The notes under the pieces were generated by a model. The model made no database searches. It saw only the letters and a list, made by a program, of their open reading frames with translations, and was not told the origin of the DNA. Position numbers and translations under genes: made by a program. From the NCBI GenBank assembly GCA_028280845.1, contig JANQKZ010000046.1:1-46992 (forward strand): 46,992 nt of DNA, given 5' to 3'. The DNA is from Opitutales bacterium (lineage in GTDB: Bacteria; Verrucomicrobiota; Verrucomicrobiia; Opitutales; JABSRG01). Positions 3,682-43,330 of this stretch are shown piece after piece; position 1 is the first letter of the stretch; every line of letters starts with the position of its first letter.

Positions 3682-3907
3682 TCTCTGCCTGATCCGGATT
3701 TTAAATATCTTTCAAATGTTAAGGCTTTTTTCTTTGCTCCTGAAGGTTATAGTCACCTCCATTTTCCATGGCTTGAGCTTTGCGGTGTGGAAGACGTCAA
3801 CCTTGTTGTGTTTATGTAGATCCTGCCTTCAGATTTTCTGTCATACCCACATAATAATGGGTCGGGTCTCTCTCGCATATTAAAATATAAACATGATACC
3901 AGGCCAT
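3682..3907 (-). pseudogene. Degenerate GIY-YIG nuclease gene, copy A
   Basis: Copy A of a tandem duplication. From ATG 3907 it reads MAWYHVYILICERDPTHYYV and onward, which holds the two diagnostic segments of GIY-YIG nucleases (VYI and YVG) at normal spacing. An indel relative to copy B (ggat where copy B has cgt) then shifts the frame and a TAA follows shortly. The end is also missing: the similarity stops in the SGSGR segment, about seven codons before the stop seen in copy B. It is therefore broken in two ways. The family is small (about 80-95 residues, UPF0213/YhbQ-like). Confidence 0.75.
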
Positions 3908-4029
3908 AAACCCAAGCTGGCTTGCCCAGCCGTAGCCTCAAGCGTATTCATCGAGTCCGCCTCCGCTTTCCCCGAGGGAAGGACTACGGCGTGACAGCCT
4001 TCGCTGGCCCGCTACGCGCGGAGCGAAGG
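3682..4029. repeat. Tandem duplication unit A (GIY-YIG gene plus palindrome)
   Basis: This stretch of about 348 bp is repeated nearly base for base at 4063-4410. It comprises the degenerate GIY-YIG gene, a roughly 90-bp leader with the inverted segment CCTTCCCTCGGGGAAGG (approximate), and a terminal palindrome with AGCCTTCGCT...AGCGAAGG arms around the core ggcccgctacgcgcgg. The two units differ by scattered substitutions and small indels, so the duplication is not recent. Confidence 0.85.
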
Positions 4030-4040
4030 AATCTTTTCCT

Positions 4041-4288
4041 CTAAAAGTGTCTTCTGGCAAATTCTCTGCCTGATCCGGATTTTAAATATTTTTCAAATGT
4101 TAAGGCTTTTTCTTTGCTCCTGAAGGTTACAGTCACCTCCATTTTCCATGGCTTGAGCTTTGCGGTGTGGAAGACGTCACCCTTGTTGTGTTTATGTAGA
4201 CGTGCCTTCAGGTTTTCTGTCATACCCACATAATAATGGGTCGGGTCTCTCTCTCGCTTATTAAAATATAAACATGATACCAGGCCAT
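4041..4288 (-). pseudogene. GIY-YIG nuclease gene, copy B, probably frameshifted
   Basis: Copy B keeps a long readable body: RDPTHYYVGMTENLKARLHK, then KLKPWKMEVTVTF and the family's C-terminal signature KYLKSGSGREFARRHF. The natural start ATG 4288 (MAWYHVYILIS) is out of frame with this body, because a GA-dinucleotide run near 4253 is two bases longer than in copy A. An open frame exists from 4322 (93 codons). It replaces the VYIL strand with a fortuitous sequence, so the GIY half of the active site would be lost. A sequencing error in the GA run would restore the gene. It lies directly downstream of tRNA-Lys on the same strand. Confidence 0.65.
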
Positions 4289-4410
4289 AAACCCAAGCTG
4301 GCTTGCCCAGCCGTAGCCTCAAGCGTATTCATGGAGTCCGCCTCCGCCTTCCCCGAGGGAAGGACTACGACGTGATAGCCTTCGCTGGCCCGCTACGCGC
4401 GGAGCGAAGG
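4063..4410. repeat. Tandem duplication unit B (GIY-YIG gene plus palindrome), abutting tRNA-Lys
   Basis: Second copy of the roughly 348-bp unit. Its right end is a palindrome GCCTTCGCT-(ggcccgctacgcgcgg)-AGCGAAGGC, immediately followed at 4412 by the CCA end of tRNA-Lys. The element therefore attaches exactly to the tRNA 3' terminus. Confidence 0.85.
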
Positions 4411-6744: not shown

Positions 6745-7476
6745 TCAGGTTAAGCCCAGGACATCCCGCATGGAATATAAGCCAGGAGTTTGGGCCAGCA
6801 CCCAGCTTGCCGCGTGGAGGGCTCCATTGGCAAAGATTTGTCGATCACTGGCCTGGTGCTTCAACTCGAGGCGTTCAGATTCGCCGGCAAACAGCACGGT
6901 GTGGTCGCCAATGATCCCGCCCCCTCGAACGGCATGGACGCCAATTTGTTCATCCGGGCGTTCGCCCGTAATGCCTTCCCGGCCGTAAATGACACGATCC
7001 CGTTTCCAGTTCCGCCCTGAAAGGAGGGCTTCTACCAGCCCCTGGGCTGTTCCGCTGGGCGCGTCTGCTTTAAATTGGTGGTGAGCCTCAATGACTTCGG
7101 GATGAAAGGAAGCATCCAATTTCCGCGCCGTCATTTCAGTTATGTAAAACAAGACATTCACCCCGATGGAATAGTTTCCAGCCCAGACGATGGGGATGGT
7201 CTCGGTTGCCTTCAGGATGCGACTGCGTTCATCTTCGGTGTGTCCTGTCGTGCCAATGATGACTGGTTTTCCGGTCGCCGCACAGGCGTCAACCAGCTTG
7301 GCGGTAGCTTCATGAAAACTGAAATCGAGGACGACATCGCTGGAAGCCAGGGCCGTAGCGAGATCATCTCCCTGGTCAACCTGGCCGCCAATTTCAATGC
7401 CCTTATGCTGGGCCGCGGTGGCAATGGCCTGCCCCATCCGCCCCAAAGCACCATGTATGCAGATTTTATAAGCCAT
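6745..7476 (-). CDS. dapB: 4-hydroxy-tetrahydrodipicolinate reductase DapB
   Basis: A 243-residue cytosolic enzyme of lysine/diaminopimelate synthesis, reducing the DapA product with NAD(P)H. The N-terminal Rossmann motif is HGALGRMGQAIA. KPVIIGTTGHTEDE is the conserved GTTG segment, and EAHHQFKADAPSGTA holds the family signature with the catalytic His and Lys. The conserved C-terminal strand GGIIGDHTVLFAGE is present. It is slightly shorter than E. coli DapB but complete. It starts 8 bp after the dapA stop, so the two are co-transcribed. Confidence 0.97.
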   Translation of the reverse strand: MAYKICIHGALGRMGQAIATAAQHKGIEIGGQVDQGDDLATALASSDVVLDFSFHEATAKLVDACAATGKPVIIGTTGHTEDERSRILKATETIPIVWAGNYSIGVNVLFYITEMTARKLDASFHPEVIEAHHQFKADAPSGTAQGLVEALLSGRNWKRDRVIYGREGITGERPDEQIGVHAVRGGGIIGDHTVLFAGESERLELKHQASDRQIFANGALHAASWVLAQTPGLYSMRDVLGLT

Positions 7477-9749: not shown

Positions 9750-10661
9750 ATGTCCACGATTTTAATGTTTTCCGGCCAGGGTGCCCAACAGGTTGGCATG
9801 GGCCAGTCGCTTTACCAGGAGGCCCCGGTTGTCGCTCAATTGTATGACCAGGCCAATGAGATCCTGGGGTTCGACCTGAAGGGGATCTCTTTTGCCGGTC
9901 CCGAAGCGGTCCTGACTGAGACCCGATACTGTCAGCCGGCTCTTTTTGTTCATGGATATTCCATTTTTAAATTGTTGGAAGATAAGGGCTTATTGGAAGA
10001 AGGCATCAGCGCGGCCTTAGGGCTCAGCCTGGGTGAATTAACCGCTCTCTCAGTGGCGGAGGTCTTTGACTTTGAAACCGGGTTGAGATTGGTCGCCGAG
10101 CGGGGGCGCCTCATGCAGGAAGCTTGCGAAGAAGCCGGAGGCAGCATGGCCGCCCTTATCGGCGGGGGTAGGGAAGAAGCCAGTGATCTTGCCCGGCGTT
10201 TCGATCTGGATGTCGCCAATTTTAACTGTCCCGGACAAATAGTGATCTCCGGTAACAAGGCTGCAATCGGTGAGGCCGTGGCCGCTGCCCGGGATAGCGG
10301 GTTCAAGCTGGCGAAAGAGCTGAATGTGGCCGGTGCCTATCATAGTCGGTTAATGATACCGGCCCGGGAGCGCTTCGCCAGCGCCATGGAGCAGGTTGCA
10401 TTCAAGGCTCCCCGGTACCCGGTGTATACCAATACTACAGGGGAAAGCATAGTAGATCCAGCCGCTATCAAAACCGCTCTGGCCGAACAGATTACCGGGT
10501 CCGTCTATTTCGAGGACAATATGCGAAATGCTGCTGCGGAAACGGGGAATTCCGTCTTTTTTGAGTGCGGCCCCGGTGGCGTCCTGGCCGGCTTCGCGAA
10601 ACGGATTGACCGTAGTTTTTCGGTCAGAAGCTTCGCGGAGCTTGAAGATTTTGCTTCCTGA
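9750..10661 (+). CDS. fabD: Malonyl-CoA:ACP transacylase FabD
   Basis: A 303-residue acyltransferase that loads malonate onto acyl carrier protein for fatty acid synthesis. The N-terminal FSGQGAQQVGMG is diagnostic. The nucleophile is Ser93 in GLSLGEL, and the catalytic His198 is in AGAYHSRLM. The PGQIVISGN segment is also typical. Length is standard. It is followed after 25 bp by lepA and then lepB on the same strand, suggesting co-transcription. The 128 bp between the PilT-type gene and fabD hold nothing else recognisable. Confidence 0.96.
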   Translation: MSTILMFSGQGAQQVGMGQSLYQEAPVVAQLYDQANEILGFDLKGISFAGPEAVLTETRYCQPALFVHGYSIFKLLEDKGLLEEGISAALGLSLGELTALSVAEVFDFETGLRLVAERGRLMQEACEEAGGSMAALIGGGREEASDLARRFDLDVANFNCPGQIVISGNKAAIGEAVAAARDSGFKLAKELNVAGAYHSRLMIPARERFASAMEQVAFKAPRYPVYTNTTGESIVDPAAIKTALAEQITGSVYFEDNMRNAAAETGNSVFFECGPGGVLAGFAKRIDRSFSVRSFAELEDFAS

Positions 10662-12517: not shown

Positions 12518-13822
12518 ATGTCAAAACCCACCAACCAGAGAAAGCAGAAACGTCAGGCAGAAGACCTACTGCATCAGGCCTCCAAGATCTACCATTTCCG
12601 CAAGGATCACCTGAAGGAGTCAGAGATCCAGGAGCTGGAGGATGTCTCTGGCTACCTGCGCGGCGTGCTGAAAGGGAAAGACGGAGGGAATTTGACCCCG
12701 GCTATCGCGCGGTTGGATACGGTTTGCAAGAAACTGGGAGGAAAAATCTACCCGCGTAATTTCTGGAATGAGAACGTGGAAATGTTGCTGCTGGCGGCCA
12801 TCCTCGTGATCGGGGTTCGGACTTTCGTGGCGCAACCCTTTATTATTCCGACCAATTCCATGTACCCCACCTATGCGGGACTGACCTGGGAGGTCTATGA
12901 TTTGGATGAAAGGGATCCCCCAAGCCTGGCGGGTAGGGCGCTTAATCTGGTGACAAAAGGGGGGCGTCACCGCAGCCTCCAGGCGGAAAGCAGTGGCGAG
13001 GTGCTTATCCCGGTTTTTGGTAATGGCGATGCTCGGCCCGGGGGAGGATCGGTTCGATTTGAGTTGGTCAAAGGCAGGATTTTCGGGGTATGGCCCGGAA
13101 CAGTGCGGGAATATACCTTATATGTCGGGAGTAATCTTCAGCCGGTAAAAGTCCAGGTCCCCAAGGATTTTGTCCTCGATGAACTCCTGTTTGAGGCTTT
13201 TTTTGACCGCGACAATCCGGAAATTCGACCTCAGGTCGTTCGCGGTCGAAATTCAAATTATATCAAAACCAATAAAATAGTGGATACCGGGGAGGTGTTT
13301 TTAGCCTTTGATATCCTGTTGGGAGATATGCTGTTTGTCGATCGGATGAGCTATCACTTCGTCAAGCCCGAGGTCGGCGATCCCTTTGTCTTCAAAACGA
13401 AAAATATCGGAGGCCTCCGGTCCAGGTCCGGCCAACAGGAAGACAAATATTACATCAAGCGTCTCGTCGGCCAGGGAGGGGATACCCTGGAAGTCCGGAG
13501 TCCCGTCCTGTATCGAAATGGTCAACCGATTGAAGGAGCCAAAGCCTTTGAAATGAACGCCAACCAGGAAGGTGAATACGAGGGCTATATCGACGGCAAT
13601 CCCATTCCATACGCAAGGAGCGTCCATATCGACGTGCCGGATGGAGCTATGATTCCCGGAAACCCGGTCGAGATTCCCCAGGACTTTTTCTACGCCATGG
13701 GCGATAACTCCGACCAAAGCCTCGATAGTCGAAACTGGGGGCTCGTTCCCAAAGACGCTGTCATTGGTCGGGCCATCTTCATTTATTACCCCTTTACCCG
13801 GCGTTGGGGCCTCGCGAAATAA
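12518..13822 (+). CDS. lepB: Signal peptidase I with a large insertion
   Basis: A 434-residue type I signal peptidase that cleaves exported pre-proteins at the outer face of the inner membrane. A basic coiled N-terminal region (1-85) precedes one transmembrane segment (about 88-104). Box B follows with the nucleophile Ser114 (FIIPTNSMYPT). Box C (GDMLFVDRM) starts near 269, the general base Lys314 is in YYIKRLVGQGGD, and box E is AMGDNSDQSLDSR. About 155 residues separate boxes B and C, far more than in E. coli LepB, where they lie close together. The insert has a beta-rich look. Its last 20 bp (13803-13822) recur at 19077-19096 inside the downstream island. Confidence 0.93.
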   Translation: MSKPTNQRKQKRQAEDLLHQASKIYHFRKDHLKESEIQELEDVSGYLRGVLKGKDGGNLTPAIARLDTVCKKLGGKIYPRNFWNENVEMLLLAAILVIGVRTFVAQPFIIPTNSMYPTYAGLTWEVYDLDERDPPSLAGRALNLVTKGGRHRSLQAESSGEVLIPVFGNGDARPGGGSVRFELVKGRIFGVWPGTVREYTLYVGSNLQPVKVQVPKDFVLDELLFEAFFDRDNPEIRPQVVRGRNSNYIKTNKIVDTGEVFLAFDILLGDMLFVDRMSYHFVKPEVGDPFVFKTKNIGGLRSRSGQQEDKYYIKRLVGQGGDTLEVRSPVLYRNGQPIEGAKAFEMNANQEGEYEGYIDGNPIPYARSVHIDVPDGAMIPGNPVEIPQDFFYAMGDNSDQSLDSRNWGLVPKDAVIGRAIFIYYPFTRRWGLAK

Positions 13823-13943
13823 CCCGCTTTCGCGCAATCAATATTGTAAATATCATTTTGGGATATCCAGTATCCTCTTTGGTTTCCCATTCACTTTTAG
13901 GGGCCCTCTGTAGAATATTTATAAATTCATTCCTTTTGGCTAA

Positions 13944-14006
13944 TGTTAATGAAGTGCTATGGCACGAGCGTTAGCGAGTGTCGTTAGCACCATCGACTGG
14001 TTATAC
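13944..14006 (-). other. attC-like site 1, distal end of the cassette array
   Basis: An imperfect hairpin (13954-13990; arms GTGCTATGGCAC and GTGTCGTTAGCAC) follows the 14001-14549 gene, whose TAA stop lies inside a GTATAAC box (14000-14006). The opposite boundary box is degenerate, which suggests the terminal, decayed site of the array. Confidence 0.55.
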
Positions 14007-14549
14007 TTCTTTGAGAATAGTGTCAGAAATTCCAATACTGGTAACTGCATACGTTTGTTTTTTCGTTATGTTTAGATCTGAAAGAAAAACAAAAATGGAG
14101 CCCGTTTCAGGTAGCGCTGTTCCAGACAGCTCTAACTCAATCCTTATAATGCGTTCATTGAAATTAGCTAAATGAAAACAAATCGCTTCAAACGCTTCTG
14201 GATTTGTATAGATGAGTGCTACTAGAGGATCATTCTCATATTCCTCTCCATAAAGTTCGTATTTTTCAGATTCGATATTCGCTCTAACATCTACGCACCC
14301 AATTGCTTCAGGCTCGCCTGTTGATGTTCGAACTTTTTCCAACCACTCTGTGTCGAATGGCGAACCTAATCTAATTTCAATAGGTTTCCCATGAAAGGCA
14401 GAGCGTTGCTCTGAATCGTCAATTTTTCCAACCAGTCTTAACCTACGTTTTGTCCCCCTTTGGAGATTATAAGCAGTTTCGCGGAAGGTTTGCTCGGCTA
14501 CTAGAATAAAAAGCGAGCATGTTCCTTTTTGGGAAGTGTTATCGAACAT
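14001..14549 (-). CDS. Hypothetical protein in an integron-like cassette
   Basis: A 182-residue protein that I do not recognise. It is polar and mixed alpha/beta without signal peptide or membrane segment. Features include RGTKRRLRLVGKID near the N-terminus, an acidic middle (ESEKYELYGEEYENDPLVAL) and a hydrophobic C-terminal part (GSIFVFLSDLN). It starts 16 bp after attC-like site 2 and its stop codon lies within attC-like site 1, as expected for a single-gene cassette. Base composition is more AT-rich than the flanking lepB. Function unknown. Confidence 0.6.
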   Translation of the reverse strand: MFDNTSQKGTCSLFILVAEQTFRETAYNLQRGTKRRLRLVGKIDDSEQRSAFHGKPIEIRLGSPFDTEWLEKVRTSTGEPEAIGCVDVRANIESEKYELYGEEYENDPLVALIYTNPEAFEAICFHLANFNERIIRIELELSGTALPETGSIFVFLSDLNITKKQTYAVTSIGISDTILKEV

Positions 14550-14564
14550 TTGAGTATGTTTCTT

Positions 14565-14659
14565 GTATAACAGTACTTACTAGGGTATTTTTGGGAGGAT
14601 AACTTACCGCTTTGGGGTAAGCAATCCTGTTCGAGCGAGAGGCCGCTAAGGGGTTAAAT
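14565..14659 (-). other. R-type attC-like element, copy 1 (site 2)
   Basis: A 95-bp element bounded on the minus strand by ATTTAAC (a perfect RYYYAAC) and GTTATAC. The interior carries AGGAT-tgc-TTACC and GGTAA-gtt-ATCCT arms around a short loop, giving an imperfect stem. The same element recurs at 18455-18549, 19645-19730 and 21989-22080. Confidence 0.65.
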
Positions 14660-14750
14660 GTTAGGGTGGAAATAACCCGTCCTCTAACATTTTCTCGGGC
14701 GATAAATGGAATTTTCTCCAACTCTTTTATTTTAATTTCCATTTTTTATC
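14660..14750. other. Short cassette-like interval without a clear gene
   Basis: About 90 bp lie between two attC-like sites. A minus-strand frame begins at 14742 (MEIKIKELEKIPFIAREN) but runs on through site 2, so it is doubtful as a gene. A 9-bp inverted repeat, AAATGTTAG...CTAACATTT, spans 14656-14696. It could be an empty or minimal cassette. Confidence 0.4.
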
Positions 14751-14842
14751 GCAGAACGCTCAGCCCAGGTAACGGTGACAGGCGGCACCGCTGCTCAGCA
14801 GCGGGGGTGACTGGCGACGTTGGCTTCCGCTGCTTGTTGGAT
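14751..14842 (-). other. attC-like site 3
   Basis: A 92-bp site. On the minus strand it opens with ATCCAACAAG (a perfect RYYYAAC box) and closes with GAGCGTTCTGC. The centre is a perfect hairpin CCGCTGC-tga-GCAGCGG, with partly complementary outer arms (AACG...CGTT). It begins a few bases after the stop of the lipoprotein gene at 14846. Confidence 0.75.
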
Positions 14843-14845
14843 GTT

Positions 14846-15349
14846 TCATTTGAATTTAGTCGTTACAAGGAGTTCTCCGTCTTGAACTCTGAAATAAACA
14901 TTTGCGGACAAATCTATGTATTCGATAACCGCATTTAGGGACATATCTTTTACTGAAAAATCATGAACACGAGCTCCAATGGCTCCATCAGTAAAATTGA
15001 AATACACTTCCGGAAATAGTTCTTTTAGAGCTTGGTAGATGCTTTTGTCTTGGAAGTGAAAAGAAACGACTTTGTTCGGGTCTATATCCTTCTCCCGCAT
15101 TCTCTCATACAGGAGCAATCTAGCCTCCATCTCCGTAATTATATCCTCAATTGAAGGGTTATAAATCTCCGAGCCTCCTTTTGGAGTAATCCTTACCTCC
15201 TTTGTCCTTATACCCCCTGAGCTGGAAGAAACTCTTTGGTGTTGGGGTTCAAGAACAATTTGGGGGGGAGTTCCACCTGAACAAGAACTGACTCCCATTG
15301 TTAGTAGAAGAATTACCATTCCCTGAATTTTTTTCATTTTTCTTTTCAT
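14846..15349 (-). CDS. Lipoprotein with an STN/secretin-like short domain (cassette gene)
   Basis: Up to 167 residues. The start is ambiguous: ATG 15349 overlaps the recombination box of site 4, and the second Met four codons on (MKKIQGMVILLLTMGVSSC) gives a normal lipoprotein signal with a Cys at the lipobox, so that start is preferred. The C-terminal half (KVVSFHFQDKSIYQALKELF, SVKDMSLNAVIEYIDLSANV) resembles the short STN domain of secretins and TonB-dependent transducers (two beta-alpha-beta units). It is present as a stand-alone lipoprotein, which is unusual. The resemblance is by pattern only. Confidence 0.6.
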   Translation of the reverse strand: MKRKMKKIQGMVILLLTMGVSSCSGGTPPQIVLEPQHQRVSSSSGGIRTKEVRITPKGGSEIYNPSIEDIITEMEARLLLYERMREKDIDPNKVVSFHFQDKSIYQALKELFPEVYFNFTDGAIGARVHDFSVKDMSLNAVIEYIDLSANVYFRVQDGELLVTTKFK

Positions 15350-15414
15350 CCAACGTAAAGGGATGGAACTACGAGCGCGAAGTGCTCGGAGTTTCTATCC
15401 CCGCCTTGTTGTGA
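15348..15414 (-). other. attC-like site 4
   Basis: A 67-bp site with a clear attC layout on the minus strand. A TCACAAC box is followed by a left arm (GGGGATAGAAACT), then the hairpin CGAGC-acttcgc-GCTCG, then a complementary right arm (AGTTCCATCCC), ending in GTTGGAT, a perfect GTTRRRY. The arms pair with bulges, as in genuine attC sites. It lies a few bases after the DUF1801 gene stop. Confidence 0.8.
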
Positions 15415-15421
15415 CCTTTTT

Positions 15422-15784
15422 TCATCTTACAATCTCAACCATCGCCTTTAGGTCGAAGTCATCGAGATCTGATTTCTTTTTAATTTTCACATGCCGAGCG
15501 TTCTTTCCAGAACCGACTACTGAATACCCAGCATCTTTCAATCTTTCCCAATTGTGGAAAAAAACTCTGACAAAATTCATCTGGGGCTGAATGCCACATA
15601 CAACATTGTTCTCTCCCCCGATAGAATACAGGGAATTACCTACTTTCTTCCCTCCATATACATTCTCATCGGCTTCAGGTAGAGCAAAAATGATTTTCGA
15701 TCTGATCACTTTACCCAGTTCTTTTATTTCCTCTGAAAACGGTTCAAATAATTCTGAGTAACTCTGCGGCGGTTTTTCGTACAT
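15422..15784 (-). CDS. DUF1801 domain protein (cassette gene)
   Basis: A 120-residue protein of the DUF1801 family, a small alpha/beta fold whose biochemical role is not established. Family features are EIKELGKVIRSKIIFALPEA near the N-terminus, VYGGKKVGNSLYSIGG, the strand pair VVCGIQPQMNFVRVFFHNW, and GSGKNARHVKIKK. Such proteins are frequent cargo of integron cassettes and mobile elements. It has its own flanking attC-like sites (15348-15414 downstream, 15801-15857 upstream), so it forms a clean one-gene cassette of about 450 bp. Confidence 0.85.
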   Translation of the reverse strand: MYEKPPQSYSELFEPFSEEIKELGKVIRSKIIFALPEADENVYGGKKVGNSLYSIGGENNVVCGIQPQMNFVRVFFHNWERLKDAGYSVVGSGKNARHVKIKKKSDLDDFDLKAMVEIVR

Positions 15785-15800
15785 GTCATTTATCTATCTT

Positions 15801-15857
15801 GCACAACGACATAGATGAGGCGACTGGCGGTGTTGCCTCCAACTACTTGTTCTGTGC
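15801..15857 (-). other. attC-like site 5
   Basis: A 57-bp site. On the minus strand GCACAGAACAAGTAG opens it and GTCGTTGTGC closes it. The two arms (GCACA...GGAGGC and GCCTCA...TGTGC) are complementary over most of their length, with bulged bases on one side. The stop codon of the upstream gene (15859) is adjacent. Confidence 0.8.
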
Positions 15858-15858
15858 T

Positions 15859-16605
15859 TTATTGGATTTCATTGTAATTAGGGACGTCCAACTTTTCCAC
15901 GAGATTAAAGGTAGATTCCGGGTCAGTGAAATTTTCTTTAAATTTGTACGTAGTCAGAATGCTATCGACTATCGGTCGACTTGAATTCAAGGACCCCTCC
16001 AAAAAAGCGCCCTGCATTATAGGAAGATCTGACTTGTGGATCTCTATGTGGATTAATCCATCTGGAATTTCTGTGATGATGGCCCTCGTATTTGAGCCCT
16101 CATAGATCCAGATTTTACTTTCTGAGTGGATAGTCATTAGCGACTTTACCAAGGCCAAAACGGTCTTTTTGATAAACCCTTCGTAACCCACTGAAAAGAC
16201 ATCGAACACACTAATATCCGTGACATTCAACCATGCTAATTGAAATTCCCATAGATCCTCGTAATCGTCTTTGAATAATTCGTAGATTTCTGGCCCTAAA
16301 CTTTCAAAGCTGCCATCACCTGGAGGAAGGAAATAATCTTTCAGGTTTCCCTCCTCGAACCTCAATGCTACTACTCCTTCTTCTTCGATTTTATGGAGGT
16401 TGGAATTATAATTTGCTGGGAGAAATAATGTAGCGTAACCGAGGTCGATTTCTTCACCAAGTGGTACGCTTGAAGTTTCGTAGCTATTCGGTATCGCCCG
16501 AAGAGCTCCATCCTTTGGAATTTGGCTTATCTTCTGATTTAAGTAGAAGAGAAATCCTAGCGCGATTGTAGGTACTACTAAACCTGCTAACCAAATTTTT
16601 TTCAT
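15859..16605 (-). CDS. Membrane-anchored hypothetical protein (cassette gene)
   Basis: A 248-residue protein of unknown function. It begins with MKKIWLAGLVVPTIALGFLF, an uncleaved-looking signal anchor, followed by an extracytoplasmic domain with several aromatic and acidic stretches (LWEFQLAWLNVTDISVFDVF). A longer frame starts at 16656, but that ATG lies inside attC-like site 6, across the recombination point, so the internal start at 16605 is preferred. The gene is bounded by attC-like sites 5 and 6. No enzymatic motif was recognised. Confidence 0.65.
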   Translation of the reverse strand: MKKIWLAGLVVPTIALGFLFYLNQKISQIPKDGALRAIPNSYETSSVPLGEEIDLGYATLFLPANYNSNLHKIEEEGVVALRFEEGNLKDYFLPPGDGSFESLGPEIYELFKDDYEDLWEFQLAWLNVTDISVFDVFSVGYEGFIKKTVLALVKSLMTIHSESKIWIYEGSNTRAIITEIPDGLIHIEIHKSDLPIMQGAFLEGSLNSSRPIVDSILTTYKFKENFTDPESTFNLVEKLDVPNYNEIQ

Positions 16606-16637
16606 GAAAGTCTTTTTATCGCGAAGCGATTTTTTTT

Positions 16638-16696
16638 CACTAACGTTTGAGTGCATTTACGCGCGAAGCGCGTTGATGTGCCACGACTTGTTGGGC
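16638..16696 (-). other. attC-like site 6
   Basis: A 59-bp site of textbook shape. On the minus strand GCCCAAC (perfect RYYYAAC) begins two bases after the OLD gene stop. The outer arm TGGCACAT faces ATGCACTC, the central hairpin is ACGCGC-ttc-GCGCGT, and the end is AACGTTAGTG. Confidence 0.85.
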
Positions 16697-16697
16697 A

Positions 16698-18437
16698 TTA
16701 TTGATCTGCGGCGAATTCCCATTGCTCTTTAGGGGCTGGGTTGGTCTTAGTCTTCCAGGTCTCCACGAGCTTCTTCAGGGCAGGATAATCGCTGTAGCTG
16801 CCTGGATGCTTCTGAGTCAATGCCAAGTCCGCGAACTTCATTAGAAGTTTGTATTTGTCCGTCTTCTGGAACTCGTCGTCACCCAGAGTAGTAATCGCGT
16901 GATAGGGTTTGTCCTTACCACCGAGCTTACCAAAGTAGAACCCCTCAAAATCTGGAACCTGCGCGATCAATCCGCATGGAGGAAGGTTCTTATCCCGGTT
17001 GGCGACAACCTCCGCAATCTTCTGATTCTCGGTCCACATTCCATTCTTGATCCATCTATCTTTGCGTTTGGACCTTGGAGAGTCTGCGTCGTGAACGATC
17101 GTGTATGGGGTGCCAAACTGATTCAGGATCTTCGCGAAGAGAACCAAGTTGGCCTTCCCCATACAGTTAACGACATTGCACCACAGGCCACCCGAAACAT
17201 GACTGACCGTAAGGGCATGATTCAGGACAGCCTGTTCGGTCTCGCCTTCGACCAGAATTGCGTGGTCCGCGAAGAAGAACTCACTAACCGTTGGATGGCA
17301 TGAACGGATCATCCGAAGCTTCGTTCGATCATCTTCAGTGAACTCCGCCGCCTCCGAGCTAAATACTCGCGGTGATCCTGAGACGCCCTTCTCCACGCGC
17401 ATGATGGTCGTATGCGGCTTTGAAACGTCGATAAATATGGGTGAGTGAGTGCAGGTAAGGACCTGCCACTCATCGATTGCTGCCAACCCATACAGGGCAT
17501 CACGCGCCGCCCTAATCATCGGCGGATGCAGAAATGACTCGGGTTCTTCCAAAAGCAGCATGCGCTGCCTACCAGGATCGATCTTCTTTGTTCCCTTCTT
17601 CGCTCGACCTATCTCTACAAGGGTGCCAAGAGCCGACCAAAGGAACGCTCGTCTCATTCCCGCACCTTGGTGACTCAAGGGAACAGACGCGCCACCGGGT
17701 GAAGCCACCCGGACGTGACTTCCGGCAGCGATAATCTTGTCTGGGTCAATCTTGCCTACCGACTGCCGGAGTGAAACTCGGTGACCAGGGAAGATTTCAT
17801 CGAGCTTGTTGGAGATCTTGTCACAAGCATCATCGAGTTCCTTCTGGGCGCCCTCCGCGAATTCATCTGCCAGTGCCTGTAGCTCACCAAGCACATTTGC
17901 CGCCTTCTTGGTGTCCTTCTTCAAGGCGTCCTTGGCTGCCGCCGTCAGAATTTCTACTACTTGGGCCTCTGTCTTCTCGGGATCGTCAGTCGGCCGAACC
18001 CTTAGGGGAATGGGGATGCGACTGGTGATAAGGGTGTCCCAGCCCCCCATCCCTCCTGCCTCCCATTTCTTTCCGCCTTCATCCCAAGAGAACTTCGCGG
18101 CTTTCTTATCTGGCTCCGCCCATTCCCACTTCGCCTGAACAACCTTTCCATAGTTTGGGTCATCGTATTCCCACTTCTCACCGAGAGCGTCTCGATCCTC
18201 ATCGGTAAGGTCGGAAAAAAGGCCCCCAATAGAAATGGCATTGGTTGGGTCTTCATCTCTGAAGCAGTTGATCGGCAGGGCTGCGCCAGTGCTCGCGAAT
18301 GCCTCGTAGGCGTCCAAAACGGAAGACTTTCCCACGTTATTCTGCCCGATCAGCACTACGATTTCGCCGATCGGAACCTCGACTCCCGGATCGCCAATAC
18401 TTGCGAAATTCTTGATGGTGAGTGCGCGAAGTATCAT
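16698..18437 (-). CDS. OLD-family ATP-dependent nuclease (AAA ATPase plus TOPRIM)
   Basis: A 579-residue overcoming-lysogenization-defect (OLD) protein. The N-terminal SMC-like ATPase has Walker A GQNNVGKSS (residues 31-39), a helical insertion, the ABC-type region with Walker B RMLLLEEPESFLHPP, and the switch His in TCTHSPIFI. From about residue 390 a TOPRIM nuclease domain carries the metal-binding Glu in AILVEGETEQAVL and the DxD in IVHDADSPR. OLD proteins cut DNA and many act in phage defence; class 2 forms pair with UvrD-like helicases (Gabija). No helicase lies next to it, so it resembles class 1 stand-alone OLD. It is flanked by attC-like sites, making it unusually large cassette cargo. 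Confidence 0.88.
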   Translation of the reverse strand: MILRALTIKNFASIGDPGVEVPIGEIVVLIGQNNVGKSSVLDAYEAFASTGAALPINCFRDEDPTNAISIGGLFSDLTDEDRDALGEKWEYDDPNYGKVVQAKWEWAEPDKKAAKFSWDEGGKKWEAGGMGGWDTLITSRIPIPLRVRPTDDPEKTEAQVVEILTAAAKDALKKDTKKAANVLGELQALADEFAEGAQKELDDACDKISNKLDEIFPGHRVSLRQSVGKIDPDKIIAAGSHVRVASPGGASVPLSHQGAGMRRAFLWSALGTLVEIGRAKKGTKKIDPGRQRMLLLEEPESFLHPPMIRAARDALYGLAAIDEWQVLTCTHSPIFIDVSKPHTTIMRVEKGVSGSPRVFSSEAAEFTEDDRTKLRMIRSCHPTVSEFFFADHAILVEGETEQAVLNHALTVSHVSGGLWCNVVNCMGKANLVLFAKILNQFGTPYTIVHDADSPRSKRKDRWIKNGMWTENQKIAEVVANRDKNLPPCGLIAQVPDFEGFYFGKLGGKDKPYHAITTLGDDEFQKTDKYKLLMKFADLALTQKHPGSYSDYPALKKLVETWKTKTNPAPKEQWEFAADQ

Positions 18438-18454
18438 CGTGTTATATTTCCTTA

Positions 18455-18549
18455 ACCCAACAGTACTTATTAGGGTATTTTAGGGAGGATAACTTACCGC
18501 TTTGGGGTAAACAATCCTGTTCGACCGGGAGGTCGCTAAGGGGTTGGGG
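18455..18549 (-). other. R-type attC-like element, copy 2 (site 7)
   Basis: A 95-bp element upstream of the OLD gene. On the minus strand it runs from CCCCAAC to GTTGGGT (perfect GTTRRRY). The interior stem AGGAT...TTACC / GGTAA...ATCCT is conserved with the other three copies. Confidence 0.7.
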
Positions 18550-18713
18550 AGGAGTGATTTAGTAGGGGGATAAACTGACGGAAAACTGGGGGATTTTGGG
18601 GGTGCACGATAGAGGGTGGTCCTAACACGCGCGCGTATTCGTACAAAATTAAGGGATACCCCCGGAATATCGGGGAGGGGTCACGACGACAAAGGATAAC
18701 TTGTTGGCCGTTA

Positions 18714-18933
18714 TTATTGATATAGAACAAGGAAAAGATGACCATGCGAAAGCGAGAGGATTACCTCATCCCCCTTTACTAACATTCCAGTGACTTCCAA
18801 TCCGTCCGGAACAGGGGAGGGGACTACAACAAGCCTCCTTCCCTTGCACCCGGCAAATTTCTACTGATTCACTCTCCAGGTCAAAATCCAAAAAAGGCAG
18901 ATTTTTGCGGAGAAGGGAACAGATGGGATCCAT
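18714..18933 (-). pseudogene. Truncated copy of an unknown repeated island gene (copy 1)
   Basis: From ATG 18933 the frame reads MDPICSLLRKNLPFLDFDLE up to CRVQGK. It then needs a +1 shift to continue as RRLVVVPSPVPDGLEV and LVKGDEVILSLS, before diverging from the intact-length copy and stopping at 18714. The same gene at 22097-22616 carries the same shift. The family is not recognised. The remnant sits upstream of R-type element copy 2. Confidence 0.55.
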
Positions 18934-19083
18934 GAGCACCCAGAGTTATGCGGTATCCAAGGCTAACCGGCTGTGTGGGCCTCTCGATAGCCGGCACAGG
19001 CTAAACAACGGGTCTTCAGGAATCGGATCCGGGCACAAAAAGGCACCAAGCACTAAGCCAAGGGGCCGGACCGGATGTTGGGG
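18747..19083. repeat. Direct repeat of about 337 bp (first copy)
   Basis: Nearly identical to 22430-22764. It comprises the first half of the repeated unknown gene plus about 150 bp upstream, and ends in both copies at GTTGGGG, which looks like a GTTRRRY recombination box. Within the upstream part are CCGGCT...AGCCGG arms. Confidence 0.85.
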
Positions 19084-19161: not shown

Positions 19162-19629
19162 TCAATTCTCATTATCAATGATAAGAGAAAACTTTCCCCA
19201 CTTTGCCTCTAACAGTAGAAATTCCTGCCCAAATTCGTATAGAATCGAGGACACGATTGCGATATTTCTATGTTGGGTATCATCACCTGAAACCTGAAGG
19301 GGGTAGGAAAGCGACATCTGGAATTCCAGTAAATTTCCACTCTCGGTCGAGATAGGATTTCCCGAGAATCGAACAGCGATCGGAGATTCGGCTAATATCA
19401 ATGATTCTACGCTTATTCTATCGTGGCCCGGTCCATGGTGGACCGTTCTATGGTGGCCCGTTGTAATCCCCGCAAAACGGATTTCTCCTTCCTTTTCACC
19501 AATGTTGTACCTTAGCGAAAAATAGAGATTCTCAGTTTCCTCGAGCGATGCTTCTTTACCGTGCGTTGCAGCAACCTGGATCGAGAGTAGTATCGGCAGG
19601 TAAATCAGGTAAAAACTTCGTGTGATCAT
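19162..19629 (-). CDS. Small secreted hypothetical protein
   Basis: About 155 residues from ATG 19629, preceded by a GGAAAG ribosome-binding sequence. A longer frame from a TTG at 19650 would begin inside the neighbouring R-type element and is less likely. A signal peptide is visible (SFYLIYLPILLSIQVAATHG). The mature part is beta-rich (NLYFSLRYNIGEKEGEIRFA, FQMSLSYPLQVSG) with a histidine-rich patch (GHHRTVHHGPGHD). It is not recognised as a known family. No convincing attC-like site follows its stop. Function unknown. Confidence 0.5.
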   Translation of the reverse strand: MITRSFYLIYLPILLSIQVAATHGKEASLEETENLYFSLRYNIGEKEGEIRFAGITTGHHRTVHHGPGHDRISVESLILAESPIAVRFSGNPISTESGNLLEFQMSLSYPLQVSGDDTQHRNIAIVSSILYEFGQEFLLLEAKWGKFSLIIDNEN

Positions 19630-19644
19630 ACTTTCCTTTCTTTT

Positions 19645-19730
19645 GTCCAACAGTCCTTATTAAGGTATTTTTTGGGAAGATAAGGAAGATAACTTGCCGC
19701 CTTGGGGGTAGCAATCCTGTTCGAGCGATG
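19645..19730 (-). other. R-type attC-like element, copy 3 (site 8)
   Basis: Bounded on the left by GTCCAAC (minus strand GTTGGAC, a perfect GTTRRRY). It contains an extra short duplication (gataaggaagataac) compared with the other copies, and its right boundary box is not recognisable. The stem segments are still present in altered form. Confidence 0.6.
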
Positions 19731-19743
19731 GGAAGATAACTCC

Positions 19744-19800
19744 TTACTGTGAATAATTGATCGGGGGATTTGCCTGGTAAACTTCTCCCTGGATGGCTCT
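19744..19800 (-). pseudogene. 3' remnant of the repeated unknown gene (copy 3)
   Basis: On the minus strand the fragment reads GEVYQANPPINYSQ followed by a stop, matching the C-terminus EEVYQANHPINYSQ of the copy at 22097-22616. Only the last roughly 17 codons are left, again right beside an R-type element. Confidence 0.55.
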
Positions 19801-19999: not shown

Positions 20000-21970
20000 T
20001 TAGATTTCATTTACTAGATCTGATAAATCATCGGAGCACTCTGTATCAATTTTATCAATAAGATTATATACTTCTTCATAGATCAAAGCTACATTAAAGA
20101 ATTGAGCTAAAATACAGTTAATTAGATGGAAATTTTTTGAATTATTGTAAGTACTCTTTGAGTTTTCTCCTACTACAAATGGTTTATCCAACGGAATTGA
20201 AGAATCTTTTACCTTTCTCAGATTTTGTTCAATTACAGTAGGGCTAATCCTATGAAAAATCTGGGGCTCTTTTTCTTGGATTAAGTCTAGAATCTGATAA
20301 TCCTTTCCATGTCCGATAGTGACAATGAATACCGTTTTTTGGTAATAGAAGGATATGTTTTTTCGAAATACAAAATTTTTCTCGATTCCTTGCCCTCGCT
20401 CAAATTCATTTCCTTGGAACGGCTCCTCTAAGAGACCCTTTAAACTTTCATCTGACACTTCTTTGATTACTTCAATCTCGGCAATACAATCAAAAAGTAA
20501 TGATTTTCTGTATTCTAGATCAAATGGTTTAACCCTTCGATTTGAAAAGTTTCTGAGAAATGTATTTTGATGCTTTACGAAATTCTCCAAACACTCCTTT
20601 AAAAGGGTTTTTCTGAAACTTCCGTAGTCAATCTCCACACAAAGCTCAATTATATTTAAATAAGACCAAAAATTGTTTTTCCTATATAGCCGTAACAGTA
20701 TATCTTCTTGTTTTCCCTTTGAATCCATGCAAATAAACATAGCAGCGAAATATTCCTGAAGTGATTTATGTGTCCATTTGTAAGTATTTCCTTCTTTAAG
20801 AAAGATTGGTACTGTATGGATTAAATCTCTTAAGAAATCGGCTGCGGAAAATTTAATCCCAGGAATGTTTCTTTCAAAATCAGATAAAACATCTATTAGT
20901 CGTTCCTTAAGGAAGTCTAATTTGTTTTCATGAATTAAACACCAAAAGCCTAATCTCCGGAGTATCTTATGAAAGTCTCCAGAATCCAATTTGCAGTGCT
21001 TTTGATGAATATAACCAGGTCGTTTTGTTAGATCATGTGACTCAAATAATGCATCATAAACCTGACTGTAAAATAAGTATCGCTTCCTCGGAATGGATGG
21101 TTTGTGTCGGTAGGCACAATATAATAAACTAACGTATAATGGATTAGTTAAAAACTCTTCTAAATTTCTATCTCCGCTGTTTTCCAGCTCCTTAATAAGA
21201 TCTTTGGACAATCCTGTTTCGGCATCGTATTTCTTAATCAGTTGGTTTGCCTCTAGTTTGCTCAACGATTCTATGTGAATCCTCCTAAAGTCGTGGAACT
21301 CTGAAAGTTCTGGTTGTTCTCTGGAACTTATTAAAATAAATGTTTTGGGATGTTTATTTATAAAGCTTCGAATTTCTTGAAGAATTTCTAGAGTATCATC
21401 AATCGGAATTTCATCGAATCCATCGAAAAATAAGAGAACTGGTAAATCAACAAAGAATTGAGAGCTGGAATCAACCGGCATTCCAATAGACTTAAAAATT
21501 TCTTCTGTTAAATTTTGATTTCCTTTAAAATTACGTAATTCGAATAATATTGGAAAATAATTCTTCCTTTCAATTAGGGTCTTTATTATCCACTTAACTG
21601 CAGTGGATTTTCCCATCCCAGCTCTATCTACAAGTAACTGGCGTTTTCCAAACGGAAAAATATCAAAATCCTTGTCTAGGGAAATTTTTGGTTCCAATTC
21701 TGGAGTAGCTATAGTTAATGGGACATATAAGTCAGTTAGCTTTTTGGGTGAATTCTGAAACGCTATTGTATGAATTACAGAACATTTCCCATACAAATCA
21801 GAAATATATTTGGTCAAAGATCTAGCAACTATTCGCTCCGTACGTTTCCGATTTTTTCCGCTTTTTAAATAATGGTGTAGAGTTGAAATAACTATATCTG
21901 TAATTATGGATTCAGCAAAAGGAATGCCGAGTTTTGCTGCAGCATTTAATGTTAAGCTTTCTAAAACCAT
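20000..21970 (-). CDS. NACHT-domain STAND NTPase, probable defence protein
   Basis: A 656-residue protein. The N-terminal roughly 100 residues are helical with no recognised effector. The NACHT module follows: Walker A AGMGKST (117-123), Walker B with the extended acidic motif LLFFDGFDEIP (about 179-189), sensor LISSREQPEL, and a winged-helix region including WTHKSLQEYFAAMF. The C-terminal roughly 220 residues lack leucine-rich repeats. Bacterial NACHT proteins are known from published work to protect against phages. That role is inferred here from family and from location in an island with an OLD nuclease. The gene is markedly AT-rich compared with the flanking chromosome, a sign of transfer. 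Confidence 0.85.
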   Translation of the reverse strand: MVLESLTLNAAAKLGIPFAESIITDIVISTLHHYLKSGKNRKRTERIVARSLTKYISDLYGKCSVIHTIAFQNSPKKLTDLYVPLTIATPELEPKISLDKDFDIFPFGKRQLLVDRAGMGKSTAVKWIIKTLIERKNYFPILFELRNFKGNQNLTEEIFKSIGMPVDSSSQFFVDLPVLLFFDGFDEIPIDDTLEILQEIRSFINKHPKTFILISSREQPELSEFHDFRRIHIESLSKLEANQLIKKYDAETGLSKDLIKELENSGDRNLEEFLTNPLYVSLLYCAYRHKPSIPRKRYLFYSQVYDALFESHDLTKRPGYIHQKHCKLDSGDFHKILRRLGFWCLIHENKLDFLKERLIDVLSDFERNIPGIKFSAADFLRDLIHTVPIFLKEGNTYKWTHKSLQEYFAAMFICMDSKGKQEDILLRLYRKNNFWSYLNIIELCVEIDYGSFRKTLLKECLENFVKHQNTFLRNFSNRRVKPFDLEYRKSLLFDCIAEIEVIKEVSDESLKGLLEEPFQGNEFERGQGIEKNFVFRKNISFYYQKTVFIVTIGHGKDYQILDLIQEKEPQIFHRISPTVIEQNLRKVKDSSIPLDKPFVVGENSKSTYNNSKNFHLINCILAQFFNVALIYEEVYNLIDKIDTECSDDLSDLVNEI

Positions 21971-21988: not shown

Positions 21989-22080
21989 GGACAGTAATTA
22001 TTAGGGTATTTTTTAGTAGGATAACTTACCGCTCTGAAATAAGCAATCCTGTTCGAACGGGAGTTCACTAAGGGGCTGTA
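21989..22080 (-). other. R-type attC-like element, copy 4 (site 9)
   Basis: The most diverged copy. The conserved core (TTACCGCTCTGAAATAAG and AATCCTGTTCGAACGGGAG on the plus strand) is present, but the boundary next to the NACHT gene (minus strand CTGTCCTATT) no longer fits GTTRRRY. It lies 17 bp from the stop of the repeated unknown gene. Confidence 0.6.
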
Positions 22081-22096
22081 GAGGAGCGAATGATCC

Positions 22097-22616
22097 TTAC
22101 TGCGAATAATTAATCGGATGATTTGCCTGATAGACTTCCTCGTGGACGGCATCTCTTACCCTGTGGCCTGTCCTGTTCTGGAAGTCGTGGCCAAAATTCA
22201 CGAACCACAGGCTCCAGAAAACGATTCCTTGTTTAGGTAACGGTTTTGATGCCGATTTTTCCTGAACAGTCGCCGGCCAATCGGAAATCACAGGGTTTCT
22301 CACTGATGGCCTATTGACGGCCGAATTCCTGGTCGGCCAAGACGGCGGTTCCTGTATTGGAATTTTGGCTCCTCGATACTCGATATAGCGGTCTGTGACC
22401 ACAGTTAGTCCAAAAAGCCGCTGACCCTTCGAAAGCGAGAGGATTACCTCATCCCCCTTTACTAATATTCGAGTGACTTCCAATCCGTCCGGAACAGGGG
22501 AGGGGACTACAACAAGTCTCCTTCCCTTGCACCCGGTTAATTTCTACTGATTCGCTTTCCAGGTCAAAATCCCAAAAAGGCAGATTTTTGCTGAGATGGG
22601 AACAGATGGGATCCAT
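22097..22616 (-). pseudogene. Repeated unknown island gene, longest copy, one frameshift
   Basis: From ATG 22616 the frame reads MDPICSHLSKNLPFWDFDLE up to INRVQGK. A +1 shift then continues the protein as RRLVVVPSPVPDGLEVTRIL, KGDEVILSLSKGQRLFGLTV and onwards to NYSQ at 22097, about 170 residues in all. The downstream part alone is open from a TTG at 22483 (128 codons). The middle is beta-rich and the C-terminal part is basic and proline-rich; I do not recognise a family. Parts of it recur at 18714-18933 and 19744-19800. Either it is a pseudogene duplicated after damage, or the shift is programmed. Confidence 0.55.
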
Positions 22617-22764
22617 GAGCCCCCAGAGTTATGCGGTATCCAAGGCTTACCGGCTGTGTGGGTCTCGATAGCCGGCACAGGCTAAACAACGGTTCCTCAG
22701 GAATCGGATCCGAGCACAAAAAGGCACCAAGCACTAAGCCAAGGGGCCGGACCGGATGTTGGGG
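22430..22764. repeat. Direct repeat of about 335 bp (second copy)
   Basis: Counterpart of 18747-19083 with few differences. It covers the 5' half of the repeated unknown gene and its upstream region and ends at GTTGGGG. Beyond that point the two copies diverge completely. Confidence 0.85.
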
Positions 22765-34023: not shown

Positions 34024-34983
34024 TCACCCGCGTGGATGGGCTTGTGCATGCGTCGTTTTGAGGCGCTTGATGCTGACATGGGTATACACCTGTGTCGTGG
34101 ATAGGCTGGCGTGACCGAGGAGGGCCTGAACCGCTCTGAGCTCCGCACCGTTGTCCAGCAGGTGCGTGGCATAGGAATGCCGGAGTTTATGCGGAGTAAT
34201 GTCGGCGGGCAACCCGGCCAGGGCCAGATAGCGCTTGAGCATCAATTGCACTTTTCTGGCGGATACGGGTTGGTGATTCCACGATACCACAACCGGGTCT
34301 CCATACCCATCCTTCCGCGTGAATGTATGGGTATACTGCTGGAGCACTTCCATGCCGATCGGACCGATGGGGCATAACCGTTCCTTCCCCCCCTTTCCCT
34401 TAATCCGAGCTATGCCGTTTTTCCGGTCGACCTGGCCATATGTCAACGAACACAATTCACTGATACGCAGTCCGGCTCCATACAGCAGCTCGAGAATCAG
34501 GCGATCGCGCCAGGCTTCGAACAGAGCTTTAGGCTCGGGAGTCCCCTCCTGATTCGCAATCCCCGAGAGGGGAGCATCCAGCAAACGCTTCATCTGGGCT
34601 TCGGTTAAGAACTTGGGAAGCGTTTTTTTGAGCTTGGGGAGCACCACTCCCGTGAAAGGGTTGCTTTCGGCTTCTTCGCATCTGATGGCCCACTTATAAA
34701 AGGTCCTCAAGGCCGAAATCCGGTTGTGCAAGGTGCGGCGGGATAACTCCTTTTGGGTCTCAATCACATAGCGTCGAGCGATGCGGGTTGAGATGGAATT
34801 CAAATCTCCATCCCATGGACTGATCCGCTCCATCCATCGGAAAAATTCGCGGATCCCATGCCCGTAATTCCGTCGGGTGTAGGGACTCAAGGCACGCTCA
34901 TGCTGCAGGTGGTCCAGAAAATCATTCACAAGTGGAGCCCAGGACGATGGCCCCTGGTCCGAAGATGATGATTCGCTTCCCAC
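34024..34983 (-). CDS. Tyrosine recombinase XerC/XerD
   Basis: A 319-residue site-specific recombinase of the kind that resolves chromosome dimers at dif. The N-terminal SAM-like DNA-binding domain (about 18-105) is followed by a catalytic domain with the complete active site: Arg173 in LLYGAGLRISEL, Lys in IKGKGGKERL, His265 and Arg268 in HKLRHSYATHLL, His291 in LLGHASLSTTQVYTH, and nucleophile Tyr300. XerC versus XerD cannot be settled here. It lacks the extra insert expected of integron integrases and is 11 kb from the cassette island, so it is not taken as the island's integrase. Confidence 0.92.
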   Translation of the reverse strand: MGSESSSSDQGPSSWAPLVNDFLDHLQHERALSPYTRRNYGHGIREFFRWMERISPWDGDLNSISTRIARRYVIETQKELSRRTLHNRISALRTFYKWAIRCEEAESNPFTGVVLPKLKKTLPKFLTEAQMKRLLDAPLSGIANQEGTPEPKALFEAWRDRLILELLYGAGLRISELCSLTYGQVDRKNGIARIKGKGGKERLCPIGPIGMEVLQQYTHTFTRKDGYGDPVVVSWNHQPVSARKVQLMLKRYLALAGLPADITPHKLRHSYATHLLDNGAELRAVQALLGHASLSTTQVYTHVSIKRLKTTHAQAHPRG

Positions 34984-35128: not shown

Positions 35129-35202
35129 GGCGCGGTAGCAAAGTGGTAATGCCTCCCTCTGCAAAAGGGATAACGGCGGTTCGATTCCGCCCCGCGCCTC
35201 CA
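35129..35202 (+). tRNA. tRNA-Cys (anticodon GCA)
   Basis: A 74-nt cloverleaf: acceptor GGCGCGG/CCGCGCC with discriminator T and encoded CCA; anticodon stem TCCCT/AGGGA around CTGCAAA (anticodon GCA); T arm GGCGG-TTCGATT-CCGCC. Its 3' part is the seed of the tandem repeat that follows. Confidence 0.97.
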
Positions 35203-35806
35203 CCCATTTTCTTCCCGCTTCAGCGGGACTGGAAAATGGAGTGCCACGCCGGAGCTTAAGCGTAGGCGGGCTGTTACCAGCCCGGGCGCGTGACTCCATC
35301 TTCGATGTATTGCCTTGCAGGCAAGAGTTGTCGGCCTTTTTCAAAGGCCTCGGAACCGCCCCGCGCCTCCACCCATTTTCTCCCTGCTTTAGCGGGACAA
35401 GAAAATGGAGTGCCACGCCGGAGCCCAAGCGTAGGCGGGCTGTTACCCAGCCCGGGCGCGTGACTTCATCTTCGATGTATTGCCTTACAGGCAAGAGTTG
35501 TCGGCCTTCTTCAAAGGCCTCGGAACCGCCCCGCGCCTCCACCCATTTTCTTCCCGCTTCAGCGGGACGTAGAAAATGGAGTGCCACGCCGAAGCTCAAG
35601 CGTAGGCGGGCTGTTACCCAGCCCGGGCGCATGACTCCATCTTCGATGTATTGCCTTACAGGCAAGAGTTGTCGGCCTTTTTCAAAGGCCTCGGAACCGC
35701 CCCGCGCCTCCACCCATTTTCTTCCTGCTTCAGCGGGACGTAGAAAATGGAGTGCCACGCCAGAGCCCAAGCGTAGGCGGGCTGTTACCAGCCCGGGTAG
35801 AGGTGT
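35187..35806 (+). repeat. Tandem repeat of about 170 bp carrying copies of the tRNA-Cys 3' end
   Basis: Four units begin at about 35187, 35356, 35526 and 35697 (periods 169-171 bp); the last is cut at about 35806. Every unit starts with the tRNA-Cys 3' end (CCGCCCCGCGCCTCCACCCA). Each full unit then holds hairpins: CCATTTTCT...AGAAAATGG enclosing CCCGC-ttca-GCGGG; CGGGCT...AGCCCG; TGCCT-tac-AGGCA; and GGCCTTT-ttc-AAAGGCC. Units differ by a few substitutions. No protein-coding content is credible, although open frames run through the repeat. Confidence 0.9.
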
Positions 35807-43243: not shown

Positions 43244-43330
43244 GGTAGGATATCCAAGTGGCTAAAGGACGTGGACTGTAAATCCATTCGCGTAATGCGT
43301 TCGGGGGTTCGAATCCCTCTCCTACCACCA
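43244..43330 (+). tRNA. tRNA-Tyr (anticodon GUA)
   Basis: An 87-nt type II tRNA: acceptor GGTAGGA/TCCTACC with discriminator A and encoded CCA; anticodon stem GTGGA/TCCAT around CTGTAAA (anticodon GTA); long variable arm CGC-gtaat-GCG; T arm GGGGG-TTCGAAT-CCCTC with a mismatch or wobble at its base. Confidence 0.96.

Follow-up and report, generated by a model that had tools for sequence, protein, structure and literature searches.

The 9.3 kb between lepB and malQ in the window, i.e. the whole stretch of 46,992 nucleotides (nt) analysed here, are very probably an integron without integrase, in which as many as four attI-type sites in tandem head the gene cassettes. The attI entry site of an integron is normally present once, beside the integrase. 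The window is contig C14 of a 62-contig, 4.79-Mb assembly of an Opitutales bacterium that is 97.7% complete. Clusters of attC sites lacking integron integrases are known as CALINs, and an initial annotation, made from the letters of the sequence, had placed such a CALIN between the two genes. This reading holds for 13.94-18.46 kb, as attC sites were found by covariance models and the cassette borders lie at G^TT, but the array had been drawn too short. It reaches about 22.1 kb, and four attI-type sites as well as two further attI-led genes (ORF6 and a NACHT gene) had been overlooked. By every criterion tested the window array is a CALIN, and its attI-type heads are what is new.

attC sites and cassette borders

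Seven minus-strand open reading frames (ORFs) between lepB and malQ were analysed. Five of them (ORF1 to ORF4 and an OLD-family gene) are each followed by an imperfect palindrome bounded by R'' and R' boxes, within about 10 nt of the stop codon or overlapping it, in line with the five hairpins first described. The stability of these palindromes is within chance (DNA-fold z-scores of -0.2 to -2.0 against dinucleotide shuffles). Plain matching of RYYYAAC and GTTRRRY was dropped as a test for attC, with 67 matches in the genome versus 206 for the reversed pattern. Because folding energies were unremarkable and plain box patterns useless, covariance models were used. For model R1, 25 attC sites were taken from arrays that adjoin or lie close to bona fide integron integrase (intI) genes in other genomes of the order, and the model was searched on the window and on a second locus of this genome on contig C41. 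Model R2 was built from 16 attC sites of this genome's other arrays and four from relatives; it contains no window sequence, excludes the attC of the other ORF3 cassette, and was searched on the whole 47-kb window with filters off. The flanks, cassettes and sites are as follows (aa, amino acids).

12518-13822, plus strand: lepB, left flank of the insertion
13938-14006, minus strand: attC of the ORF1 cassette, the last one (R2 19.8 bits, E 0.003; R1 12.2 bits, E 0.37)
14001-14549, minus strand: ORF1, 182 aa, no Pfam family, 39% GC
14751-14842, minus strand: attC of the ORF2 cassette, R'' ATCCAAC, R' GTTCTGC (R2 9.9 bits, E 1.7)
14846-15349, minus strand: ORF2, 167 aa, lipoprotein-like N terminus
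15348-15414, minus strand: attC of the ORF3 cassette (R2 31.3 bits, E 1.6e-6)
15354-15806, minus strand: complete ORF3 cassette, from the TT after one crossover to the G of the next
15422-15784, minus strand: ORF3, 120 aa, weakly DUF1801-like
15801-15855, minus strand: attC of the ORF4 cassette (R1 19.0 bits, E 0.005; R2 22.8 bits)
15859-16656, minus strand: ORF4, 265 aa, one N-terminal membrane segment (by eye), no family
16638-16696, minus strand: attC of the OLD cassette, GCCCAAC ... GTTAGTG (R1 19.8 bits, E 0.003; R2 26.2 bits)
16698-18437, minus strand: OLD-family ATPase/TOPRIM nuclease, 579 aa, 53.5% GC, candidate anti-phage gene
23114-24673, plus strand: malQ, right flank of the insertion

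The four best R2 matches in the window all lie on the minus strand within the array at E <= 0.003, behind ORF3, OLD, ORF4 and ORF1. Thus the covariance-model check that the initial annotation had suggested returned attC sites with both models, and four of its hairpins stand as such. The attC box plan (R'' RYYYAAC, R' GTTRRRY, L'' and L' arms, extrahelical bases) was found, with some box deviations, behind ORF3, ORF4 and OLD; R' is degenerate at the first two sites (13938 and 14751). In the case of ORF1, the R'' box GTATAAC overlaps the stop codon and complements the start of its own cassette, GTTATAC, at 7/7 positions. In the case of ORF2, R'' likewise exactly complements the cassette start, and the attC has DNA relatives in arrays of contigs C31 (L100, 81%) and C53 (L099, 76%). 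No Rfam family matches the array.

In the excised form of a cassette, R'' has to be complementary to the bases with which that cassette begins. This pairing was examined in ten cassettes, five in the window and five in C41. Altogether 32 of 40 variable positions pair with the own cassette start, while permutations gave a mean of 16.2 and none of 200,000 reached 32. By comparison, R'' matched the opposite end of its own attC at only 12/36 positions. Among the ten, only ORF4 clearly departed from the pairing with the cassette start (0/4).

The second copy of the ORF3 cassette, in an array on contig C22 (L096:4890-5342), is direct evidence of site-specific movement. Both copies are identical at 440 of 453 positions (97%), the identity stops exactly at G^TT on both sides, and the 40-bp flanks are only 18/40 and 16/40 identical. 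Since this cassette recurs in C22, array order is not conserved. Furthermore, in six relatives, which belong to four families (L021, L025, L029, L036, L038 and L041), malQ directly adjoins lepB, so that the array has been inserted into a conserved junction of the two genes. The ORF3 gene has two copies in this genome and none in the 272 others of the order (273 in total). The proposed comparison of gene order thus did not refute a CALIN. The GC content is 39-40% for ORF1 to ORF4, 33% for the NACHT gene and 53.5% for OLD, versus 51.7% for the whole window.

A reading of the hairpins as transcription terminators, or as repetitive palindromes separating ordinary genes, would fit their unremarkable folding energies and the placement of the genes on one strand. 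The covariance scores, the R''/R' pairing, the common cassette with exact borders and the recurrence in several arrays contradict this, and we consider it hardly credible.

attI-type heads

A repeat of 87-93 bp is found at 14569, 18459, 19649 and 21990 of the window and again at the head of the C41 array (L016, about 7116-7223); a more diverged copy heads the C22 array (L096, about 9762-9830). It always directly precedes a first gene. The window copies and their surroundings are:

14569-14655, minus strand: attI-type copy 1, stem-loop, L-box-like CCCTAGT, end ...TAAGTACTG^TT, 93% identical to copy 2
18459-18563, minus strand: attI-type copy 2, whose R box GTTGGGT begins the OLD cassette
18739-19083, strand not assigned: segment copy, 94% to 22422-22764 in the flank behind copy 4
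19162-19650, minus strand: ORF6, about 155-162 aa, led by copy 3
19649-19727, minus strand: attI-type copy 3, 75% identical to copy 2
20000-21970, minus strand: NACHT + SNaCT5 protein, 656 aa, 33% GC, candidate anti-phage gene, led by copy 4
21990-22078, minus strand: attI-type copy 4, 84% identical to copy 2, crossover triplet degenerate (GTC)
22094-22764, strand not assigned: flank behind copy 4, pieces of which recur behind copy 3 (19741-19797) and copy 2 (18739-19083)

The repeat end ...CCCTAATAAGTACTG^TT supplies the TT that opens the first cassette, and a position before the first cassette with a common G^TT was found for window copies 1 and 2 and for the C41 and C22 copies. At these four heads, 6-7 of 7 positions of the R box are complementary to the R'' of the first cassette (GTTATAC/GTATAAC for ORF1, GTTGGGT/GCCCAAC for OLD, GTTAGGG/TCCTAAC for C41 and GTTATGT/ACATAAC for C22). 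In attI1 the L box reads CCCTAAA and the R box GTTRRRY, and attI2 has the core AATAAAATGTTRRRY (PMC12901181). By eye, copies 1 and 2 match this plan with CCCTAAT or CCCTAGT followed by GTTGGGT or GTTATAC. The six repeat copies keep a stem-loop in which two pairs are changed on both sides, a finding that is no more than suggestive. Judged by its end motif and position, the repeat is classed as an attI-type site. The qualified name was chosen because adjacency to intI is not seen here, although the motif adjoins intI in relatives.

This link was obtained with the motif TAATAA-n(1-2)-ACTGTT, derived from the repeat and scored at intI loci with a threshold of 11/12 or more. Upstream of intI and on the divergent strand it is present in 15 of 55 named Verrucomicrobiota loci, at a distance of 341-810 bp. 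As controls, it was found in 0/55 loci on the intI strand, in 0/17 loci outside the phylum and in 0.28% of shuffles. Within the order, 6 of 31 loci carry it divergently upstream of intI (4/1550 shuffles).

At 14569-14655 and 18459-18545, within the stretch initially annotated, the repeats are attI-like and not attC, and here the annotation has to be corrected. It could still be argued that the 90-bp repeat is a genome-specific attC variant resembling a Vibrio cholerae repeat (VCR), with its conserved stem-loop and an end at the crossover G^TT. Neither R1 nor R2 matches it, it always lies before the first gene, it is the first element in C41 and C22, and its end matches sites upstream of intI. 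We therefore dropped a VCR-like attC as improbable.

The C22 array (L096, G000:C22:1-9830) is larger, with about 16 attC sites on the minus strand, and runs off the contig start from its diverged attI-type head; its content includes the ORF3 cassette copy, a glyoxalase-like cassette present twice (88%), and genes for a HEPN protein and for an addiction-module antitoxin. In C41 (L016, 7116-10230) six attC sites follow an attI-type head beside an IS3-type transposase fragment (by eye), and the cassettes encode GNAT, aspartyl protease and HAD-like proteins. More attC clusters lie on contigs C60, C56, C53, C31 and C5 (L097, L098, L099, L100 and L101, respectively).

Origin of the integrase-less arrays

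As initially annotated, no intI lies in the window, and the search of the remaining genome, also suggested there, gave none in the assembly (profile TIGR02249, no gene above cut-off). The two best matches of this profile are XerD (C8) and XerC (window 34024-34983). Lacking a detected intI, the locus is not a complete integron (intI, attI and attC), and it agrees with the CALIN definition in having no integron integrase gene nearby.

In the mechanism that we propose, gene cassettes would be inserted singly by IntI through attC x attI recombination at G^TT, with the IntI encoded elsewhere, then or now, and acting in trans. Copy 1 (14569) would head a one-cassette run (ORF1) and copy 2 (18459) a run of four (OLD, ORF4, ORF3 and ORF2). 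Copies 3 and 4 would each lead one gene, ORF6 and NACHT, now ending at the next attI and not at an attC. Since portions of the copy 4 flank are also present behind copies 2 and 3, the extra attI copies probably arose when attI was duplicated along with parts of the flank upstream of it. Transcription would enter from the attI side, so that the first gene behind each attI may be best placed for it. The stretch at 14571-14756, between the ORF2 attC and copy 1, is without clear gene, and a 67-aa frame crosses the attI copy into the ORF1 start; this stretch could be a promoter or a gene-less cassette.

More generally, the entry site itself may have dispersed in this lineage. In this case, attI sites of about 100-170 bp without intI, often more than one to a genome and four in tandem here, would serve as satellite platforms on which an IntI encoded elsewhere gathers cassettes, and CALINs would arise by attI spread and not by intI loss or off-target insertion at attG. 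We see the arguments for and against this as evenly balanced. With at most one mismatch, the motif AATAACACTGTTSGGC occurs about 60 times in 273 genomes versus about 11 times for the reversed pattern, some copies lying beside intI and many not. Among 20 motif copies without a reported nearby intI (L107-L126), 14 have attC sites downstream, with about 13 each in L109 and L115. All 58 attC matches lie on the motif strand and downstream, in fetched stretches that favour the downstream side. An integrase-like match was present in only one of the 20 stretches (L125). Several of the orphan-motif genomes are single-contig with intI elsewhere (G034, G113, G125, G223 and G227), so that assembly gaps cannot explain those orphan motifs. 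Upstream flanks of 94-178 bp are alike between some motif copies within one genome, and attC families are common to orphan and intI arrays of relatives. For a stem-loop preceding attI in relatives, the signal is no more than suggestive (mean z of -1.2). Overall, attI-headed, integrase-free arrays may be a design common to the whole lineage. Neither the exact repeat core, searched in 84,980 species genomes, nor a repeat copy, sought by BLAST in the 272 relatives, was found, and hence only the terminal motif is common to relatives. A clean whole cassette common to orphan and intI arrays was sought among relatives, and none was established.

Three observations on recombinase genes and repeats in relatives may be added. 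At 6243-7037 of L125, a tyrosine recombinase-like gene (32% to IntI) lies on the opposite strand inside an orphan attI-headed array. In L069 (G040:C5), from a genome of another family, the end of intI adjoins the end of malQ, a second association of an integron part with malQ. In the single-contig genome G034, segments of about 2.5 kb are repeated at 97% within and between the intI-bearing loci L086 and L087.

Two other origins have to be weighed. Firstly, an active chromosomal integron may have its intI on an unassembled piece, the arrays found here being its satellites. The completeness of 97.7% in 62 contigs, the heads of C56 and C60 at contig ends, the presence of intI in 61 of 273 genomes of the order, and the 97% identical cassette in two arrays, which implies that movement is not ancient, all fit this; on the other hand, no intI fragment was found anywhere in the assembly, including the contig ends of the C56 and C60 arrays. 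We regard it as a serious possibility, just short of even. Secondly, a once-complete integron could have lost intI by deletion, the four attI-like repeats being later functionless tandem duplications. CALINs have widely been proposed to be degraded integrons (PMC9024848; PMC8618304), and the flank behind copy 4 is indeed duplicated piecewise behind copies 2 and 3. Yet tblastn revealed no intI remnant in 13.8-23.2 kb or in the C41 locus, and orphan attI heads three arrays here and many in relatives without remnants, for which repeated independent loss is less economical. Such a loss is possible, though we hold it with some doubt.

Several points weigh against an attI-headed, integrase-less integron in the window. 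The attC trailing ORF2, the fifth of the proposed hairpins, is weak (only 9.9 bits with R2), copy 4 shows GTC and not GTT, and no recognisable attC lies behind ORF6 or the NACHT gene. Moreover, 40 of the 55 Verrucomicrobiota intI loci are without the motif at threshold, and attI is therefore not uniform in the phylum. Finally, the C56 and C60 arrays run off their contigs on the integrase-proximal (head) side, and intI may be present but unassembled.

Cassette genes and known systems

The OLD protein was recognized by PADLOC (Old, E 3.6e-75) and by the Pfam families AAA_15 and OLD-like_TOPRIM, and the NACHT protein by Pfam NACHT (E 4.7e-11) and SNaCT5 (E 5.5e-12). These candidates suggest that the cassette stock includes phage-defence genes, the cassette status of the NACHT gene and ORF6 being deduced from the preceding attI. 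The label DUF1801 first given to ORF3 was not sustained, as PF08818 matches only below the cut-off (E 0.015). Elsewhere in the window, near-identical direct repeats (94-98%) lie by tRNA-Cys, tRNA-Lys and tRNA-Tyr genes (35187-35797, 3682-4410 and 43326-43651).

CALINs are about as common in databases as complete integrons (2961 versus 2760; PMC9024848), draft genomes raise their counts (PMC9024848), and their origin is disputed between intI loss, rearrangement and off-target insertion. At the same time, little has been described of attI beyond class 1, where IntegronFinder, the standard tool, does not detect it (PMC9024848). Given a motif for Verrucomicrobiota attI, and single-contig genomes in which attI-headed arrays lie at a distance from intI, it becomes testable whether a single integrase supplies many platforms in one cell. 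In addition, candidate anti-phage genes (OLD, NACHT) are added to the chromosomal cassette stock outside Proteobacteria.

CALINs and integrons are already known in Verrucomicrobiota (PMC9024848; PMC8618304). In the open-licence texts searched, neither CALINs headed by attI nor attI copies dispersed away from intI were found to be described. Like known CALINs, the window array consists of several tandem attC-bounded cassettes on one strand, with no intI in cis. Known CALINs are defined on attC only (PMC9024848), and the window array differs by its attI-type heads, four of them in one locus. Xanthomonas CALINs outside ilvD are likewise integrase-less chromosomal arrays away from the intI locus; in the parts of that report available to us, no attI heads are described and the origin is discussed as ancestral integron activity (PMC12444791). 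The chromosomal integrons of Verrucomicrobiota, as in Verrucomicrobia bacterium IMCC26134 (CP011265.1, L129/L060), have the same attC family, attI motif and cassettes divergent from intI, but they carry intI beside attI, which the window does not. In the case of the DeltaattI-type cassettes of class 1 and 2 integrons (PMC12901181), genes are bounded by attI on both sides, as are ORF6 and NACHT here, and an attI-ORF-attI architecture recombines efficiently with IntI1 in assays (PMC12901181). Those cassettes belong to mobile resistance integrons and contain pieces of 14-244 nt or a single full attI1 (PMC12901181), whereas the window holds copies of about 90 bp with flank pieces in a chromosomal array without intI.

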